From Candidatus Poribacteria bacterium (GTDB taxonomy: Bacteria > Poribacteria > WGA-4E > UBA9662): DNA of 64,000 bases. This document shows, one piece after another, positions 4,946-11,390 of the stretch. The translations under genes and the position numbers were made by a program. Location of the stretch: contig PAQF01000077.1 of the NCBI GenBank assembly GCA_002709695.1, positions 1-64,000 on the forward strand, in the 5' to 3' direction. Numbering within the stretch: position 1 is the first letter of the stretch; each line of letters opens with the position of its first letter. Under the pieces are notes generated by a model. That model did no database searches. It saw nothing but the letters and a program-made list of their open reading frames with translations, and had not been told where the DNA came from.

Positions 4946-5686
4946 ATGTCAATTAAGTTGAAAACACATGGCCTGATTAAGCGTTATTCTAGAAAAGGGC
5001 GTAACGTTGTTAATGACGTAAGTGTTGAAGTTGGAACAAGTGAAATTGTTGGTTTGTTAGGCCCAAATGGTGCCGGTAAATCGACCACCTTTTACATGAT
5101 TGTGGGGTCAATTAAACCGAATGTAGGAGATATCTCCTATGATGGTCAAATTATCACTAAGTTTCCGATGTTTAGACGTGCGCGACTTGGCATCAGTTAT
5201 CTTCCACAGGACACCTCGATTTTTCAAAAGTTGACAGTTGAAGAAAATATTGAATCTGTTTTGGAAGTGATGGGTATTGATAAACAAATACGGCAGCGAA
5301 GAAAAACGGAACTAATGGATGAACTTGGTATATCACATCTTGCCAAAAGTAAAGCTTATACGCTTTCTGGCGGTGAATGTCGTCGAGCGGAAATTGCTCG
5401 CGCATTAGCGTCCGATCCCTCTTTCATACTTTTAGATGAACCTTTTTCTGGAATTGATCCGATTGCTGTTCAAGATATTAAACAAATTATTTTTCATCTA
5501 CGGGAACGAAAATTAGGTGTGTTGGTAACCGATCATAATGCTGCAGAGATGCTTGAGATCGTTGATCGCGCATACCTGATTACTGATGGGAAGATCACAT
5601 TGGCTGGTTCTCCAGAAGAACTAATCGAAAACGAAATTGCTCGCCAAAGCTACTTTGGGAAACACTTTGAACTTCGTCGTCATTGA
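4946..5686 (+). CDS. lptB: LPS export ABC transporter ATP-binding protein LptB
   Basis: Walker A GPNGAGKS, signature LSGGECRRAEIARALA, Walker B FILLDEPFSGIDP; conserved order lptC-lptA-lptB-rpoN. Confidence 0.93.
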   Translation: MSIKLKTHGLIKRYSRKGRNVVNDVSVEVGTSEIVGLLGPNGAGKSTTFYMIVGSIKPNVGDISYDGQIITKFPMFRRARLGISYLPQDTSIFQKLTVEENIESVLEVMGIDKQIRQRRKTELMDELGISHLAKSKAYTLSGGECRRAEIARALASDPSFILLDEPFSGIDPIAVQDIKQIIFHLRERKLGVLVTDHNAAEMLEIVDRAYLITDGKITLAGSPEELIENEIARQSYFGKHFELRRH

Positions 5687-5718: not shown

Positions 5719-7284
5719 ATGAATTTGGGCCTTAACCAATCCATTAGCCAAAGAGTTGAACAAAAGCTTCAATTTAAATTGTCCCAGAAGATGCAACAAG
5801 CAATCAAGATGTTGTTGATGTCTCGATTGGACCTTACTCAGCATTTAACACAGCAGTTGGAGGAAAATCCCTTCTTGGATGAAGGTTTAGAAGAGGATTT
5901 AGACCAACCAGAGTCTAGCCCCGATGAAATTGTAAATTCAAGTACAGATAATACAGAGAAAAACAGTGAAGAAAATGTAGATTCTTCACCAGTAGAAGAC
6001 AGATTGCTGGAACCTAGTGATCCCGAACCGGACTTCGGCTGGGAGGATTTTTTAGATGACAGTGTTTATCCAAGTGAAAGATTGGCTTTTGAGTCTCATG
6101 AAGACGCTGATAATAGGCTACAAGATCTTGAGAATCACTGGTCTTTGCAGGACTTTCTACTGAACCAAATTGACATCATCTCACTTTCCGAACGCGAGCG
6201 TCAAATAGGAAGTGCAATTATTGGTAACTTAGATGAGGATGGATGTCTTGTAATCTACGAACCGATTGATGATGGTAATACCTATCATTCACAAAGATTA
6301 AACGCAACTGAGGAGATTGCTAAACAAGTTGGTTGTGAAGTTGAGGATGTTGAAGATGTATTAACTTTTATGCAACGACAATTTGAACCTGTTGGCGTCC
6401 CGTTTCGGACAACGGAAGAAACGTTGCTTCTGCAAGCTAAAACATATGGTATTGATGATCCATTGGTAACAAAAATCATTGCTGATCATTTTGAAGCTCT
6501 TAAGCAGAACCAGATTCGTCAAGTTGCACAAGCTCTTCGTGTTAAAACGGATGATGTTTTAGCTGCTCGTGATATTATTAGCACTCTTGATCCATTTCCG
6601 GGCAGGCGTTTTATGTCGTTATCTCGTAAGGGTCGAAGTGCATCGGAACGATCTATTATTCCTGATGTAGTCTTGGAAAAAGGCGATGGTGGTTACAAAG
6701 CAGTAGTAAATGATAGTGGAATGCCTCGGCTTCGTTTAAATCAATTTTATATTAATATGATGCTCAATGATGCTAAAAGACTTGATGACCCAACAAAGGA
6801 GTTCCTTGAAAATTATCGGGCTAGAGCAATTGATTTGTTAAAGAACATCGAGTTAAGACGGCAGACGGTTGCTAGAATTACGGAGGCTGTTTTTGCAGTC
6901 CAAGTTGGTTTTCTCGATAGAGGGGTTGATGGGCTTAAACCTCTCGTTCGTCGTGAAATTGCTGATACCGTTGGGGTTCACGAATCAACGGTAAGTCGCG
7001 CAACCAGCAGCAAATATGTGCAAACACCTCAAGGGGTTTATCCACTGTCTTTCTTTTTTAGTGCTGAACTTGACACTGACTCTGGAACTATATCAACAAC
7101 AACGGTAAAAGATAAAATTGAAAATATGATTGCTAAGGAAAATCTGGCTAAGCCATTAAGTGATCAAGCGATATCAGATTCCTTAGGAGAGCTGGGTATT
7201 CATGCTGCACGAAGAACAGTTGCTAAATATCGGGAACAGCTTGGAATTTTGTCATCGAGTAAACGGCGACGAAAATGGAATTAG
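5719..7284 (+). CDS. rpoN: RNA polymerase sigma-54 factor RpoN
   Basis: Q-rich N-terminal region I (LKLSQKMQQAIKMLLMSRLDL), C-terminal RpoN box ARRTVAKYRE. Confidence 0.95.
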   Translation: MNLGLNQSISQRVEQKLQFKLSQKMQQAIKMLLMSRLDLTQHLTQQLEENPFLDEGLEEDLDQPESSPDEIVNSSTDNTEKNSEENVDSSPVEDRLLEPSDPEPDFGWEDFLDDSVYPSERLAFESHEDADNRLQDLENHWSLQDFLLNQIDIISLSERERQIGSAIIGNLDEDGCLVIYEPIDDGNTYHSQRLNATEEIAKQVGCEVEDVEDVLTFMQRQFEPVGVPFRTTEETLLLQAKTYGIDDPLVTKIIADHFEALKQNQIRQVAQALRVKTDDVLAARDIISTLDPFPGRRFMSLSRKGRSASERSIIPDVVLEKGDGGYKAVVNDSGMPRLRLNQFYINMMLNDAKRLDDPTKEFLENYRARAIDLLKNIELRRQTVARITEAVFAVQVGFLDRGVDGLKPLVRREIADTVGVHESTVSRATSSKYVQTPQGVYPLSFFFSAELDTDSGTISTTTVKDKIENMIAKENLAKPLSDQAISDSLGELGIHAARRTVAKYREQLGILSSSKRRRKWN

Positions 7285-7343
7285 GTTGAACTATGCAAAT
7301 GGCTTACAAAAACAAGGTGCTGGGAAATCATCAGTAGTTAGAA

Positions 7344-8276
7344 ATGGCACATCATATCACTGTTCAGGATCTAGTTGGACGTGCAGGTGCTGATCTCAAA
7401 CTCGGTCTTATTGTAGGTGAAAAAGGATTAAATCGTCAAATAATCTCAGCTGATTCAAATCGGCCGGGGCTTGCTTTATGTGGATACTACGAGCACTTCG
7501 GTTCTGATAGAGTACAGGTTTTTGGGAAAGGTGAAGTTGCTTACCTTCAAGATCTTTCTTCCTCCAACCGATCCGAAGTATTATCTTTGTTTTTTTCATA
7601 TCCAGTTCCCTGTTTGGTTTTTGTTTCAGATTTGCGTGTTCCAAATGTAGTCAAGGCGTTGGCTAGTCAACATCAAATTCCGGTCTTATCGACGCCTTTG
7701 CCTTCGACTATTTTCACTGTCCGATTACTCCGATTTCTGGAAGACGAATTAGGAATTGTTGACTGTATTCATGGTAATCTAGTCGACGTGTTTGGTATTG
7801 GAGTTCTAATTTTAGGTAAGAGCGGTATAGGTAAAAGTGAATGTTCTCTTGAGCTAGTTCAAAAAGGTCATCGCCTAATTGCAGATGATTCTGTTCTGCT
7901 CAAACAAGTTGCGGGTCCTCGTATTCTCGGATTCCGACCAGAATTTTTCAAGCATTATATTGAAGTTCGAGGACTCGGTATTATTGATGTAGTCTCCTTG
8001 TTCGGAGTAACCGCCATTGGAGACCGGAAACAAGTTGAGTTAGTTGTGTTTCTTGAGGAGTGGGATGAGAATCAGGGATATGACCGAATAGGATTTAGTA
8101 ATGAGTCTTATGTCTTTCACGAAGCAGAAGTTAATCAGGTTACAATACCAGTGGCGCCCGGGAGAAACATCTCAAACTTGATTGAGACTGCCGTGGCAAA
8201 TCTATTAAGTCAAAGGTTCGGTATTGACGCACCTAAAAATCTGAATAGTGAGCTGAGTAAAGCTTTAGAAAATTAA
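7344..8276 (+). CDS. hprK: HPr kinase/phosphorylase
   Basis: P-loop GKSGIGKSECSLELVQKGHRLIADD and N-terminal LCGYYEHFGSDRVQVFGKGEVAYL characteristic of HprK. Confidence 0.93.
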   Translation: MAHHITVQDLVGRAGADLKLGLIVGEKGLNRQIISADSNRPGLALCGYYEHFGSDRVQVFGKGEVAYLQDLSSSNRSEVLSLFFSYPVPCLVFVSDLRVPNVVKALASQHQIPVLSTPLPSTIFTVRLLRFLEDELGIVDCIHGNLVDVFGIGVLILGKSGIGKSECSLELVQKGHRLIADDSVLLKQVAGPRILGFRPEFFKHYIEVRGLGIIDVVSLFGVTAIGDRKQVELVVFLEEWDENQGYDRIGFSNESYVFHEAEVNQVTIPVAPGRNISNLIETAVANLLSQRFGIDAPKNLNSELSKALEN

Positions 8277-8357
8277 TAATCGTGCAGTTTGAATCAAGTT
8301 AGGTGTCAGTTACGTTAGTCTCAATATTTAATTTATCATTCATGGTAGAAATTGGCA

Positions 8358-8603
8358 ATGTCTAAAAAAAGTATAGTTGTCAGCGAGCGTGTTGACGTAG
8401 CAAAAGCGAGTAAGATAGCAGATGCCGCCAAGGGTTTTGAATCTAATATATCTCTGCAAAAAGAATTAATGAAAGCTAATGCTAAAAGTGTCATGGGCAT
8501 CATAATGCTAACAGCTGATGAAAACGATGAGCTGGAGATTTCTGCTGACGGTGTTGATAGCGATGCTGCTGTTAAAACGTTGGAAAAACTAATTTCTGGT
8601 TAA
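8358..8603 (+). CDS. HPr-like phosphocarrier family protein lacking His15 (Crh-like)
   Basis: Aligns to HPr through AKGFESNISLQ...ANAKSVMGIIML...LEISADGVDSDAAVKTLEKLI; Ser in KSVMG conserved; His15 position is Asp (GAC 8394-8396). ATG at 8358 within ORF 8352..8603. Confidence 0.85.
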   Translation: MSKKSIVVSERVDVAKASKIADAAKGFESNISLQKELMKANAKSVMGIIMLTADENDELEISADGVDSDAAVKTLEKLISG

Positions 8604-8626: not shown

Positions 8627-8662
8627 GAGCTCTTCTCGTTTTATTACCGAGAGGAGCTTTTT
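8627..8662 (+). terminator. Rho-independent terminator after the HPr-like gene
   Basis: GCTCTTCTCG-TTTTATTAC-CGAGAGGAGC (one G-U pair) followed by TTTTT. Confidence 0.8.
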
Positions 8663-8744
8663 CAATTCAAGAACCTGCTCAAGGCAGTTTCTGAGATACT
8701 TTATTATAATCTAAATACTTAATTTCAAATTAAGGGAAAAAGGA

Positions 8745-11390
8745 ATGACGACGGATATTCCGAAGAATTATTTACCTCAAGAAATCGAGAAGAAATGGTA
8801 TCAATTTTGGCTTGATCGAGATTACTTTCATGCAAAAGATAGGTCCAATAACCCCCCTTTTTCAATTGTCATTCCTCCGCCTAATATTACCGGAAGTTTA
8901 CATACTGGGCATGCGTTGGATAATACACTCCAAGATACATTGATCCGTTGGAAGCGAATGCAAGGCTACAATACGCTTTGGATGCCAGGAACAGATCATG
9001 CCGGTATTGTAACAGAATTGATTATGGAAAGAGCATTAGTCGAAGAGGGAACCAGCCGACAGGAAATTGGACGTGAGAAATTCATTGATCGGATGTGGCA
9101 GTGGAAGGACGAATCACGTGGTAAAATTATTAGTCAGTTGCAAGAAATCGGTAGTTCATGTGATTGGGAGCGTGAGCGATTTACTCTTGATGCAGGTTTA
9201 TCTAAAGCAGTTAGGACTGCATTTGTAAAACTTTACGATCGTGGACTAATATATCGTGGTGATTACATGGTGAACTGGTGTCCAAATTGCCAAACGGCTG
9301 TGTCAGACCTAGAAGTTGTGCCCATCGAAATTGAAGGTAATTTTTATCACATTAAATATAATGTAAAGAACTCAGATGAATTCTTGGTCATTGCGACCAC
9401 ACGCCCGGAAACAATGCTTGGTGACACCGCGGTAGCAGTTCATCCAGAAGATGAGAGGTATAAGCATTTAGTTGGACAAACTGTCATTTTGCCGATCCTT
9501 GAACGAGAGTTGCCCATTATTGCGGATCAATATGTTGATATGGACACAGGCACGGGTGCACTCAAAGTAACACCGGCACATGATCTAAACGACTATGAAA
9601 TTGGCAAACGACATGATTTGGAAACGATCAATATTTTTGATGATAATGGAACTTTGAATGAAAATGCTGGTAAGGAATATGTATCTTTAGACAGATTTGA
9701 CTGTCGCTCAAAATTGATCAAAGACCTTCAGTCCCAACAGTTATTACTCAAGGTTGTTGATCATCTCCATGCTGTTGGGCATCATGATCGATGTGACCAG
9801 ATTATTGAACCTTACATCTCTCCTCAATGGTATGTGGATGTGAAACCGTTGGCCGAACGTGCTATTGAAGCCTCTAAAACTGGGCAGATCACTTTCATCC
9901 CTGATCGTGAAACCAAGCGCTTCCATCAATGGATGGAAGATATTTTGCCATGGTCAATTTCACGGCAACGCTGGTGGGGACACCGGATACCAATATGGTA
10001 TTGTGGAGATTGTCAAGCTCTCACTTGTACTGTGGATACCCCTGACCAGTGTTCCGATTGTAATTCTAAAAATCTCAAACAGGATGAAGATGTATTAGAT
10101 ACTTGGTTCAGTTCCGGACTTTGGCCTTTTTCTACTATGGGTTGGCCCGAAAATACTGAGCTTCTCAAAACTTTTTATCCAACTTCAGTGTTAGTTACAG
10201 GTTGGGATATTCTCTTTTTTTGGGTCTCACGGATGATTATGCTTGGTTTGGAATGTATGGGGCATGTTCCTTTCAATCAAGTTTACTTACATGGATTAGT
10301 TGCTGATGAACATGGAAAAAAGATGAGTAAATCCCGTGGAAATACCATCGACCCTGTAGAAACAATTGACAAATATGGTGCTGATGCCTTTCGTTTTGCT
10401 ATTGTGTACTCGACCATCCCTCTTCCTTATATGCCATTACCGGAATACCAAATTGAGGCGGGGAGACGGTTTGCCAATAAGATATGGAATGCATCGCGGT
10501 TTTTGCTAATGAATTTGGAGGACTATGATCCAGAATCGTCAGTTGAAATTAATCCACAACTAGTTGACAAGTGGATCTGCAGTCGATTTGATACTGCAGT
10601 ACAAAGTATTAATGAAGCATTTGGGCAATTCCGTTTCAGTGATGCTGCACACATCATTTATGAGTTTATGTGGCATGAGTTTTGTGATTGGTACGTAGAA
10701 ATGATTAAGCAACGTCTTTATTATTCTGATGATCCGGTTGCTAAGTACACGGCTCAAACAGTTGCTATCGATATCTTGGACGGAACATTACGCTTATTAC
10801 ATCCAATCATGCCGTTTTTAACCGAGGAGATTTGGCAACAGTTACCTGTTAAGGGAGAAAGTATAACAATTTCATCTTACCCAGAGCCGAATCAGGATTC
10901 CAAAGATGCCGAAGCTGAGATGAAAATGCGAGTCATTATGGACGTTATTGAAGAGATACGAAGTATCCGAGGTGAGATGAATATTCCTCCTTCGACTGAA
11001 ATTGAAATATTAATCCAAGCGCCTAACGCAGATACTCGGCAAATTTTAGAAACGCACCTTGAAGAAAACATGCGATCATTCACCAAATTCATGAAAGTTG
11101 CAATAGCCGAATATCAAGAGAAACCGAAATCTGCTGCTACTGCAATAATTGATGATCTGATTGTATATATTCCGTTATCGGATGTTCTGGATATCGATGA
11201 AGAAAAGAAACGTCTACAGAAAAAACTGGAGAAGACAAGGTCAGAGCTTGAAAATGTGGAGAAGACGTTAGCTAATAAAAATTTTGTTGAACGCGCCCCA
11301 AAGCAGGTTATTGATCAGAAATACGAACGCAAAACTAAACTGGAATCTGAACAAGAAAAGATTTTGCTTAATTTGCATATGTTTGATTGA
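8745..11390 (+). CDS. valS: Valyl-tRNA synthetase
   Basis: Class I signatures PPPNITGSLHTGHAL and KKMSKSRGN, C-terminal coiled coil. Confidence 0.97.
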   Translation: MTTDIPKNYLPQEIEKKWYQFWLDRDYFHAKDRSNNPPFSIVIPPPNITGSLHTGHALDNTLQDTLIRWKRMQGYNTLWMPGTDHAGIVTELIMERALVEEGTSRQEIGREKFIDRMWQWKDESRGKIISQLQEIGSSCDWERERFTLDAGLSKAVRTAFVKLYDRGLIYRGDYMVNWCPNCQTAVSDLEVVPIEIEGNFYHIKYNVKNSDEFLVIATTRPETMLGDTAVAVHPEDERYKHLVGQTVILPILERELPIIADQYVDMDTGTGALKVTPAHDLNDYEIGKRHDLETINIFDDNGTLNENAGKEYVSLDRFDCRSKLIKDLQSQQLLLKVVDHLHAVGHHDRCDQIIEPYISPQWYVDVKPLAERAIEASKTGQITFIPDRETKRFHQWMEDILPWSISRQRWWGHRIPIWYCGDCQALTCTVDTPDQCSDCNSKNLKQDEDVLDTWFSSGLWPFSTMGWPENTELLKTFYPTSVLVTGWDILFFWVSRMIMLGLECMGHVPFNQVYLHGLVADEHGKKMSKSRGNTIDPVETIDKYGADAFRFAIVYSTIPLPYMPLPEYQIEAGRRFANKIWNASRFLLMNLEDYDPESSVEINPQLVDKWICSRFDTAVQSINEAFGQFRFSDAAHIIYEFMWHEFCDWYVEMIKQRLYYSDDPVAKYTAQTVAIDILDGTLRLLHPIMPFLTEEIWQQLPVKGESITISSYPEPNQDSKDAEAEMKMRVIMDVIEEIRSIRGEMNIPPSTEIEILIQAPNADTRQILETHLEENMRSFTKFMKVAIAEYQEKPKSAATAIIDDLIVYIPLSDVLDIDEEKKRLQKKLEKTRSELENVEKTLANKNFVERAPKQVIDQKYERKTKLESEQEKILLNLHMFD

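Follow-up and report, generated by a model that had tools for sequence, protein, structure and literature searches.

A histidine-less HPr beside HprK in a poribacterial lineage: probable conversion of a mannose-type PTS remnant into a serine-only switch

HPr normally answers to two signals, one arriving from EI (PEP) and the other from HprK (ATP, Pi, FBP), and to our knowledge the targets of P-Ser-HPr outside the Firmicutes are poorly known. Incomplete PTSs with a regulatory role are well known (PMC2937029). In the Brucella-type alphaproteobacterial HprK/NPr/EIIA-Man "incomplete" PTS, hprK adjoins an EIIA-Man-like gene and HPr and the system is purely regulatory, much like the locus described here; Brucella, however, keeps EI, EIIAs and the phospho-His, which the poribacterial lineage does not, and its HprK is N-terminally truncated whereas the poribacterial enzyme has both domains. 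Brucella HprK phosphorylates the NPr serine even when the NPr His is mutated (PMC2937029). ptsH can occur without ptsI (PMC2405797), and only HPr and EIIB are predicted in another case (PMC2751442); EI-less HPrs comparable to ours are given there for Ureaplasma, Mycoplasma hominis and Bartonella. These three have small, host-restricted genomes, while the poribacterial ones measure 4–7 Mb and show stepwise losses. The substitution of interest here, His15 to Asp, is familiar from HPr laboratory mutants (E. coli, PDB 1cm2/1cm3/3ccd; Listeria; T. saccharolyticum), which can still be phosphorylated on serine in vitro, as seen for the H15D proteins of Listeria and S. salivarius (PMC3526391); those mutants were engineered and sit in cells with EI, whereas the poribacterial Asp15 is natural and fixed, and the remainder of the active site has changed as well. 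Finally, B. subtilis Crh is a paralog that exists beside a functional HPr and EI and acts with CcpA and against MgsA (PMC13130090). A literature search that was thin on original HPr biochemistry returned no published description of a poribacterial HprK/HPr pair.

The window analyzed here is a 64,000-nucleotide stretch from the genome of Candidatus Poribacteria bacterium, a free-living relative of sponge bacteria, and all features given below lie on its forward strand. The gene string lptCAB-rpoN-hprK-HPr is closed by an HPr-family gene at 8358–8603 that encodes 81 aa from its ATG, with an in-frame TTG at 8352. Its product matches PF00381 (Pfam PTS-HPr; E=2.2e-17, 63 bits vs. a cut-off of 23) and TIGR01003 (NCBIfam HPr; 56 vs. 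47.9), and because both scores exceed their cut-offs we regard it as a genuine HPr and not a chance match. The upstream neighbors lptB (4946–5686; TIGR04406) and rpoN (sigma-54; 5719–7284; TIGR02395) are in conserved synteny. Family f1, to which the window belongs, has no hpf (hibernation factor) at the site between rpoN and hprK where relatives carry it (window 7285–7343; L049 and L050). Downstream, HPr is followed by a strong intrinsic-terminator-like hairpin (8627–8659, or 8627–8664 for the 12-bp stem and the stretch of T behind it; folding energy −19 kcal/mol, z −4.5) and by valS (8745–11390).

The HPr gene starts 81 bases after the end of hprK (7344–8276), so the linkage of the two at an lpt-rpoN locus, as proposed in the initial annotation, is borne out. 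The 310-aa HprK (HPr kinase/phosphorylase) scores 326 bits against TIGR00679 (cut-off 240), has N- and C-terminal domains (PF02603 and PF07475), and aligns with 1ko7 and 1jb1. The His140 region, the Walker A motif GKSGIGKS (7815–7838), the ADD motif, the signature IEVRGLGIID (7959–7988) and a PV..GRN stretch are all present, both in the window genome and across the clade. Walker A and the signature follow the definitions of PMC2937029, where a conserved C-terminal region required for phosphorylase activity is also identified; the PV..GRN stretch probably corresponds to that region. Given that both domains and the catalytic and signature motifs are intact, HprK is likely to act as a kinase on the adjacent HPr. 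The serine phosphorylation reported for H15D HPrs in vitro (PMC3526391) and for Brucella NPr without its His (PMC2937029) points in the same direction.

At the level of single residues, the phospho-His15 column of HPr is filled by Asp (GAC, 8394–8396; D13 counted from the ATG) and the Ser46 column by Ser (AGT, 8487–8489; S44 from the ATG) within the motif MKANAKSVMG, precisely where the initial annotation had placed the replaced histidine and the retained serine block. The gap-free alignment to HPr that it had claimed needs correction: the N-terminal strand can be aligned only by taking two residues out of the loop that precedes residue 15 (VS--ERVD vs. canonical 9-TxxxxGxH-15). From residue 15 to Ser46 the register is right, so that Asp truly fills the His15 column. 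The Arg17 column holds Ala. With Asp at 15 and Ala at 17, the protein has neither the phospho-His15 nor the Arg17 of a phosphocarrier and is therefore an HPr-fold homolog rather than a phosphocarrier.

Two of the checks named in the initial annotation were whether sister orthologs carry His15 and whether a second HPr or a ptsI lies elsewhere in the genome. The family f1 sisters carry Asp instead: Candidatus Poribacteria UWMA-0119 (G013 = L016) has Asp (GAT) at the same codon position, together with the same Ser, and the third member (G012) has Asp at residue 15 too, with an HPr identity of 41%. Aligned orthologs thus have Asp15 in all f1 genomes and an invariant Ser46 across the order. Neither a second HPr nor a ptsI was found in the genome; the gene at 8358–8603 is the sole HPr match, which excludes a redundant paralog. 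Sequencing error or local decay as the source of Asp15 is likewise excluded by the different codon in the sister genome and by low dN/dS.

Between the window and its sister, at a synonymous divergence of ~0.7 changes per site, dN/dS is 0.19 for HPr and 0.12 for hprK, compared with 0.05–0.16 for neighboring genes, and the HPr reading frame is unbroken in all f1 genomes. Purifying selection acts on both genes; HPr is neither a sequencing error nor a pseudogene. That dN/dS in the operon peaks at HPr, that the HPr active site is eroded, and that 59 members of the order have neither gene could suggest a functionless relic in slow decay, heading for the loss seen in sister family f4. We find this hard to credit, as dN/dS remains far below 1 at this divergence with the frame intact, the Ser46 block is near-invariant, and the catalytic motifs of HprK are conserved.

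The erosion is also unevenly spread. In the window HPr only 5 of 15 ancestral residues are kept in the active-site block (residues 12–26), vs. 12 of 17 in the Ser46 block; for the f1 HPrs together the figures are 5/15, 3/15, and 9/15 in the residue-15 block and 12–14 of 17 in the Ser46 block. This is the expectation if recognition by EI and EIIA has been released and recognition by HprK retained. No HPr read in the order lacks Ser46, and the serine block is recognizable in the wider phylum as well. Within block 12–26 of the f1 proteins, only some three positions are conserved, D15 among them.

The surveyed genome (5.2 Mb, ~96% complete) appears to have no PTS around this HPr. Profile searches of it yielded no EI N-domain, and neither EIIA-Man nor EIIA-2 was found; the three family f1 genomes agree on the absence of EI. 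A full-length poribacterial EI used as query against the EI-less genomes gave only partial matches at 24–38% identity in frames of 840–930 aa, compared with 65–85% for true EIs; these partial matches are other PEP-utilizing enzymes, of the PPDK/PPS type. Family-profile and full-length searches together exclude a hidden EI, and the HPr is left with no EI partner in its genome. One might still suppose that a divergent EI or another PEP-dependent (PPDK/PPS-like) enzyme phosphorylates HPr, since EI-related PEP-utilizing domains do occur on two contigs (G000:C26 and C25). These lie in frames of ~880–920 aa, as PPDK or PPS would, such frames coexist with a real EI in G003 and G005, the HPr-binding EI N-domain is in none of them, and the acceptor His is gone; we give this possibility almost no credence. 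Of the order's 14 genomes with HPr, a single one has a fructose/Ntr-type EIIA (G005:C719:3665–4090), possibly from a separate PTS or from contamination.

Of the 73 genomes surveyed in the order, 14 have HPr as well as HprK, and the other 59, all from sister family f4, have neither. The gene order lipid A acyltransferase-lptC-lptA-lptB-rpoN-hpf-hprK-EIIA(Man)-HPr-EI-valS is conserved, and hpf-hprK-EIIA(Man)-HPr-EI is shown to be the ancestral poribacterial locus. EI adjoins HPr in most HPr-bearing genomes of the wider phylum and is present in 4 of the 14 in the order. The full set is retained in G001 and G005 (in the latter the locus is split over two contigs, and the HPr sequence comes from the ends of both), and EI sits between HPr and valS in G001 and G002. 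G002 and G003 have an EI with an intact SHTAI active site (split over contigs in G003), yet their EIIA is broken by an in-frame stop or reduced to fragments despite the retained EI; such relics beside EI are an intermediate stage. The EIIA-Man remnants between hprK and HPr can be located at L038:8601–8888 and L039:1652–1803, in genomes whose EI gene looks intact. G004 and six g7 genomes retain hpf and have neither EIIA nor EI, and in family f1, including the window, hpf, EIIA and EI are all missing at the locus. Family f7 (L056–L059; G082, G079, G080, and G083) has a further divergent variety of HPr, with the motif G[LI]HLHVA, in which Arg17 is replaced by His, and with KS-I/V-MS where other HPrs have KSxMG; most of these genomes still have EI.

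On a tree built from lptB, rpoN and hprK, EI disappears on at least three occasions (f1, G004, and g7), and H15D arose twice, always where EI is missing: at the base of f1 and in G008 and G010 within g7. The latter two (L006/L045 and L007/L047) have the motif GLDARPAG in an otherwise canonical HPr. By simple count, ignoring relatedness, 5 of 10 genomes without EI have Asp15, compared with 0 of 12 that have EI. The His15 of distant orthologs is the ancestral state, and its change follows EI loss on the tree and does not reflect local decay. A contig scan for HprK returned only one close relative and two spirochaetes, in one of which the neighboring HPr (L017) has His15. Five EI-less genomes (G004, G006, G007, G009, and G011; L040, L043, L044, L046, and L048) keep both His15 and Arg17, so loss of EI does not by itself free His15 to change.

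All five non-His15 HPrs carry Asp, from two independent origins, and f1 has held on to it across 41% overall identity. This could be taken to mean that Asp15 is a working phospho-acceptor, with an unknown kinase or small-molecule donor making an acyl phosphate and HPr carrying two signals, Asp-P and Ser-P; E. coli HPr His15Asp reportedly accepts and donates phosphate, according to the literature behind PDB 1cm2/1cm3/3ccd. We consider this very unlikely: EI, the sole known donor, is missing, f1 has lost Arg17 and deleted part of the catalytic loop, and H15D in Listeria cuts PTS activity by over 96% (PMC3526391). The two H15D events are weak evidence in its favor, because His to Asp takes one nucleotide step. 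With EI gone and Arg17 lost, phosphotransfer through Asp15 is itself unlikely.

Asp is a good N-cap residue for helices, and the structural model points to a role along these lines. An AlphaFold model of the window HPr, made from a 3-sequence alignment and with a modest pLDDT of 73.6, has the element order beta-alpha-beta-beta-alpha-beta-alpha of HPr, with helix 1 starting at residue 14, Asp13 at its N-cap, and Ser44 near the start of helix 2. Asp15 can be explained without phosphate chemistry on these grounds, and as modeled it more likely caps the N-terminus of helix 1 than serves as a working acyl-phosphate site. Foldseek matches to the model are HPrs, among them His15Asp HPr (3ccd, 1cm3), the HprK-bound form 1kkl, and the complexes of HPr with glycogen phosphorylase and Rsd (9s8k, 4xwj). 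Alternatively, Asp15 may be a fixed phosphomimic, so that HPr permanently looks His-phosphorylated to its target and Ser46 phosphorylation adds a second layer. In T. saccharolyticum HPr, H15D has been used to mimic phosphorylated His (PMC3526391), and the repeated origin of Asp would suit this idea, but the data fit charge mimicry and helix capping alike, no EIIA-type reader of His-P is left, and in f1 the recognition block around it is eroded. We therefore rate a phosphomimic as improbable, if less so than a phospho-acceptor.

Whatever the role of Asp15, the output of the pair differs from that of Crh. In the 14 genomes of the order that carry HPr, the LacI family (PF00356; CcpA) gave no match over the cut-off and MgsA (TIGR00160) no match, and the three weak LacI matches all fall inside rpoN genes. 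A Crh-type output through CcpA or MgsA is excluded by the lack of both families, and the output must be something other than those documented for Crh. By analogy with E. coli HPr, which binds Rsd and glycogen phosphorylase, a direct enzyme or regulator partner is plausible as the likeliest kind of target. The window HPr shares with Crh the HPr fold, the absence of His15, the retained Ser46, the expected status of HprK substrate, and the lack of a PTS role; it differs in being the only HPr of its genome, with no EI, no LacI-type regulator, and no MgsA, and in having Asp at residue 15 where Crh has Gln. The "Crh-like" label of the initial annotation is thus apt for the residue pattern and fails for paralog status and for the CcpA and MgsA partners. 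Its broader description of an HprK-linked, PTS-uncoupled regulator stands, with one HPr, no EI, intact HprK motifs, and none of the contrary findings set out beforehand; the pair is better seen as what is left of a PTS, turned into a serine-only switch, than as a Crh.

Our main reading, to which we assign a probability of roughly 0.75, is that a vestige of a mannose-type PTS has become a stand-alone, PTS-uncoupled HprK/HPr regulatory switch working through Ser-P. As shown above, the lineage lost EIIA and EI from an ancestral hprK-EIIA(Man)-HPr-EI locus, and its single HPr gave up His15 (for Asp), Arg17, and two loop residues while the Ser46 block stayed. HprK, its catalytic and signature motifs kept and its gene lost or retained together with HPr, would use ATP or PPi to phosphorylate Ser44 (the Ser46 of HPr) and Pi to remove the phosphate again, according to metabolic state. 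Either Ser-P or unmodified HPr would bind some target protein other than CcpA or MgsA, and Asp15 would most likely cap the N-terminus of helix 1 and carry no phosphate. Arg17 and helix-1 residues also help to form partner surfaces in known HPrs. Counting against a serine switch, Arg17 and helix-1 residues are changed here, and HprK would have to tolerate these changes. Also weighing against it are the absence of both known Crh outputs, the EI-less relatives that keep His15, the modest pLDDT of the model, and a genome only ~96% complete, although the three f1 genomes agree. A more far-reaching version, which we hold only tentatively and at clearly less than even odds, would see a complete metabolic switch in Gram-negative-type bacteria, built from HprK and an HPr without the His, involving no PTS, CcpA or MgsA and acting on an undescribed target, in which Asp15 was twice selected as an adaptive replacement of phospho-His after EI loss.

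HPr without EI is already known from a few reduced genomes; what is new is a graded series at whose end the phospho-His is gone while the HprK target persists, in a lineage that has none of the known readers. The natural H15D HPrs found here are also on offer for studying why Asp replaces phospho-His. In these genomes evolution has cleanly removed one input arm of HPr and preserved the intermediates, from the full set through a broken EIIA, loss of EI, and loss of His15 to loss of everything, and it is therefore directly testable whether Ser-P signaling alone is worth keeping and what Ser-P controls outside the Firmicutes.
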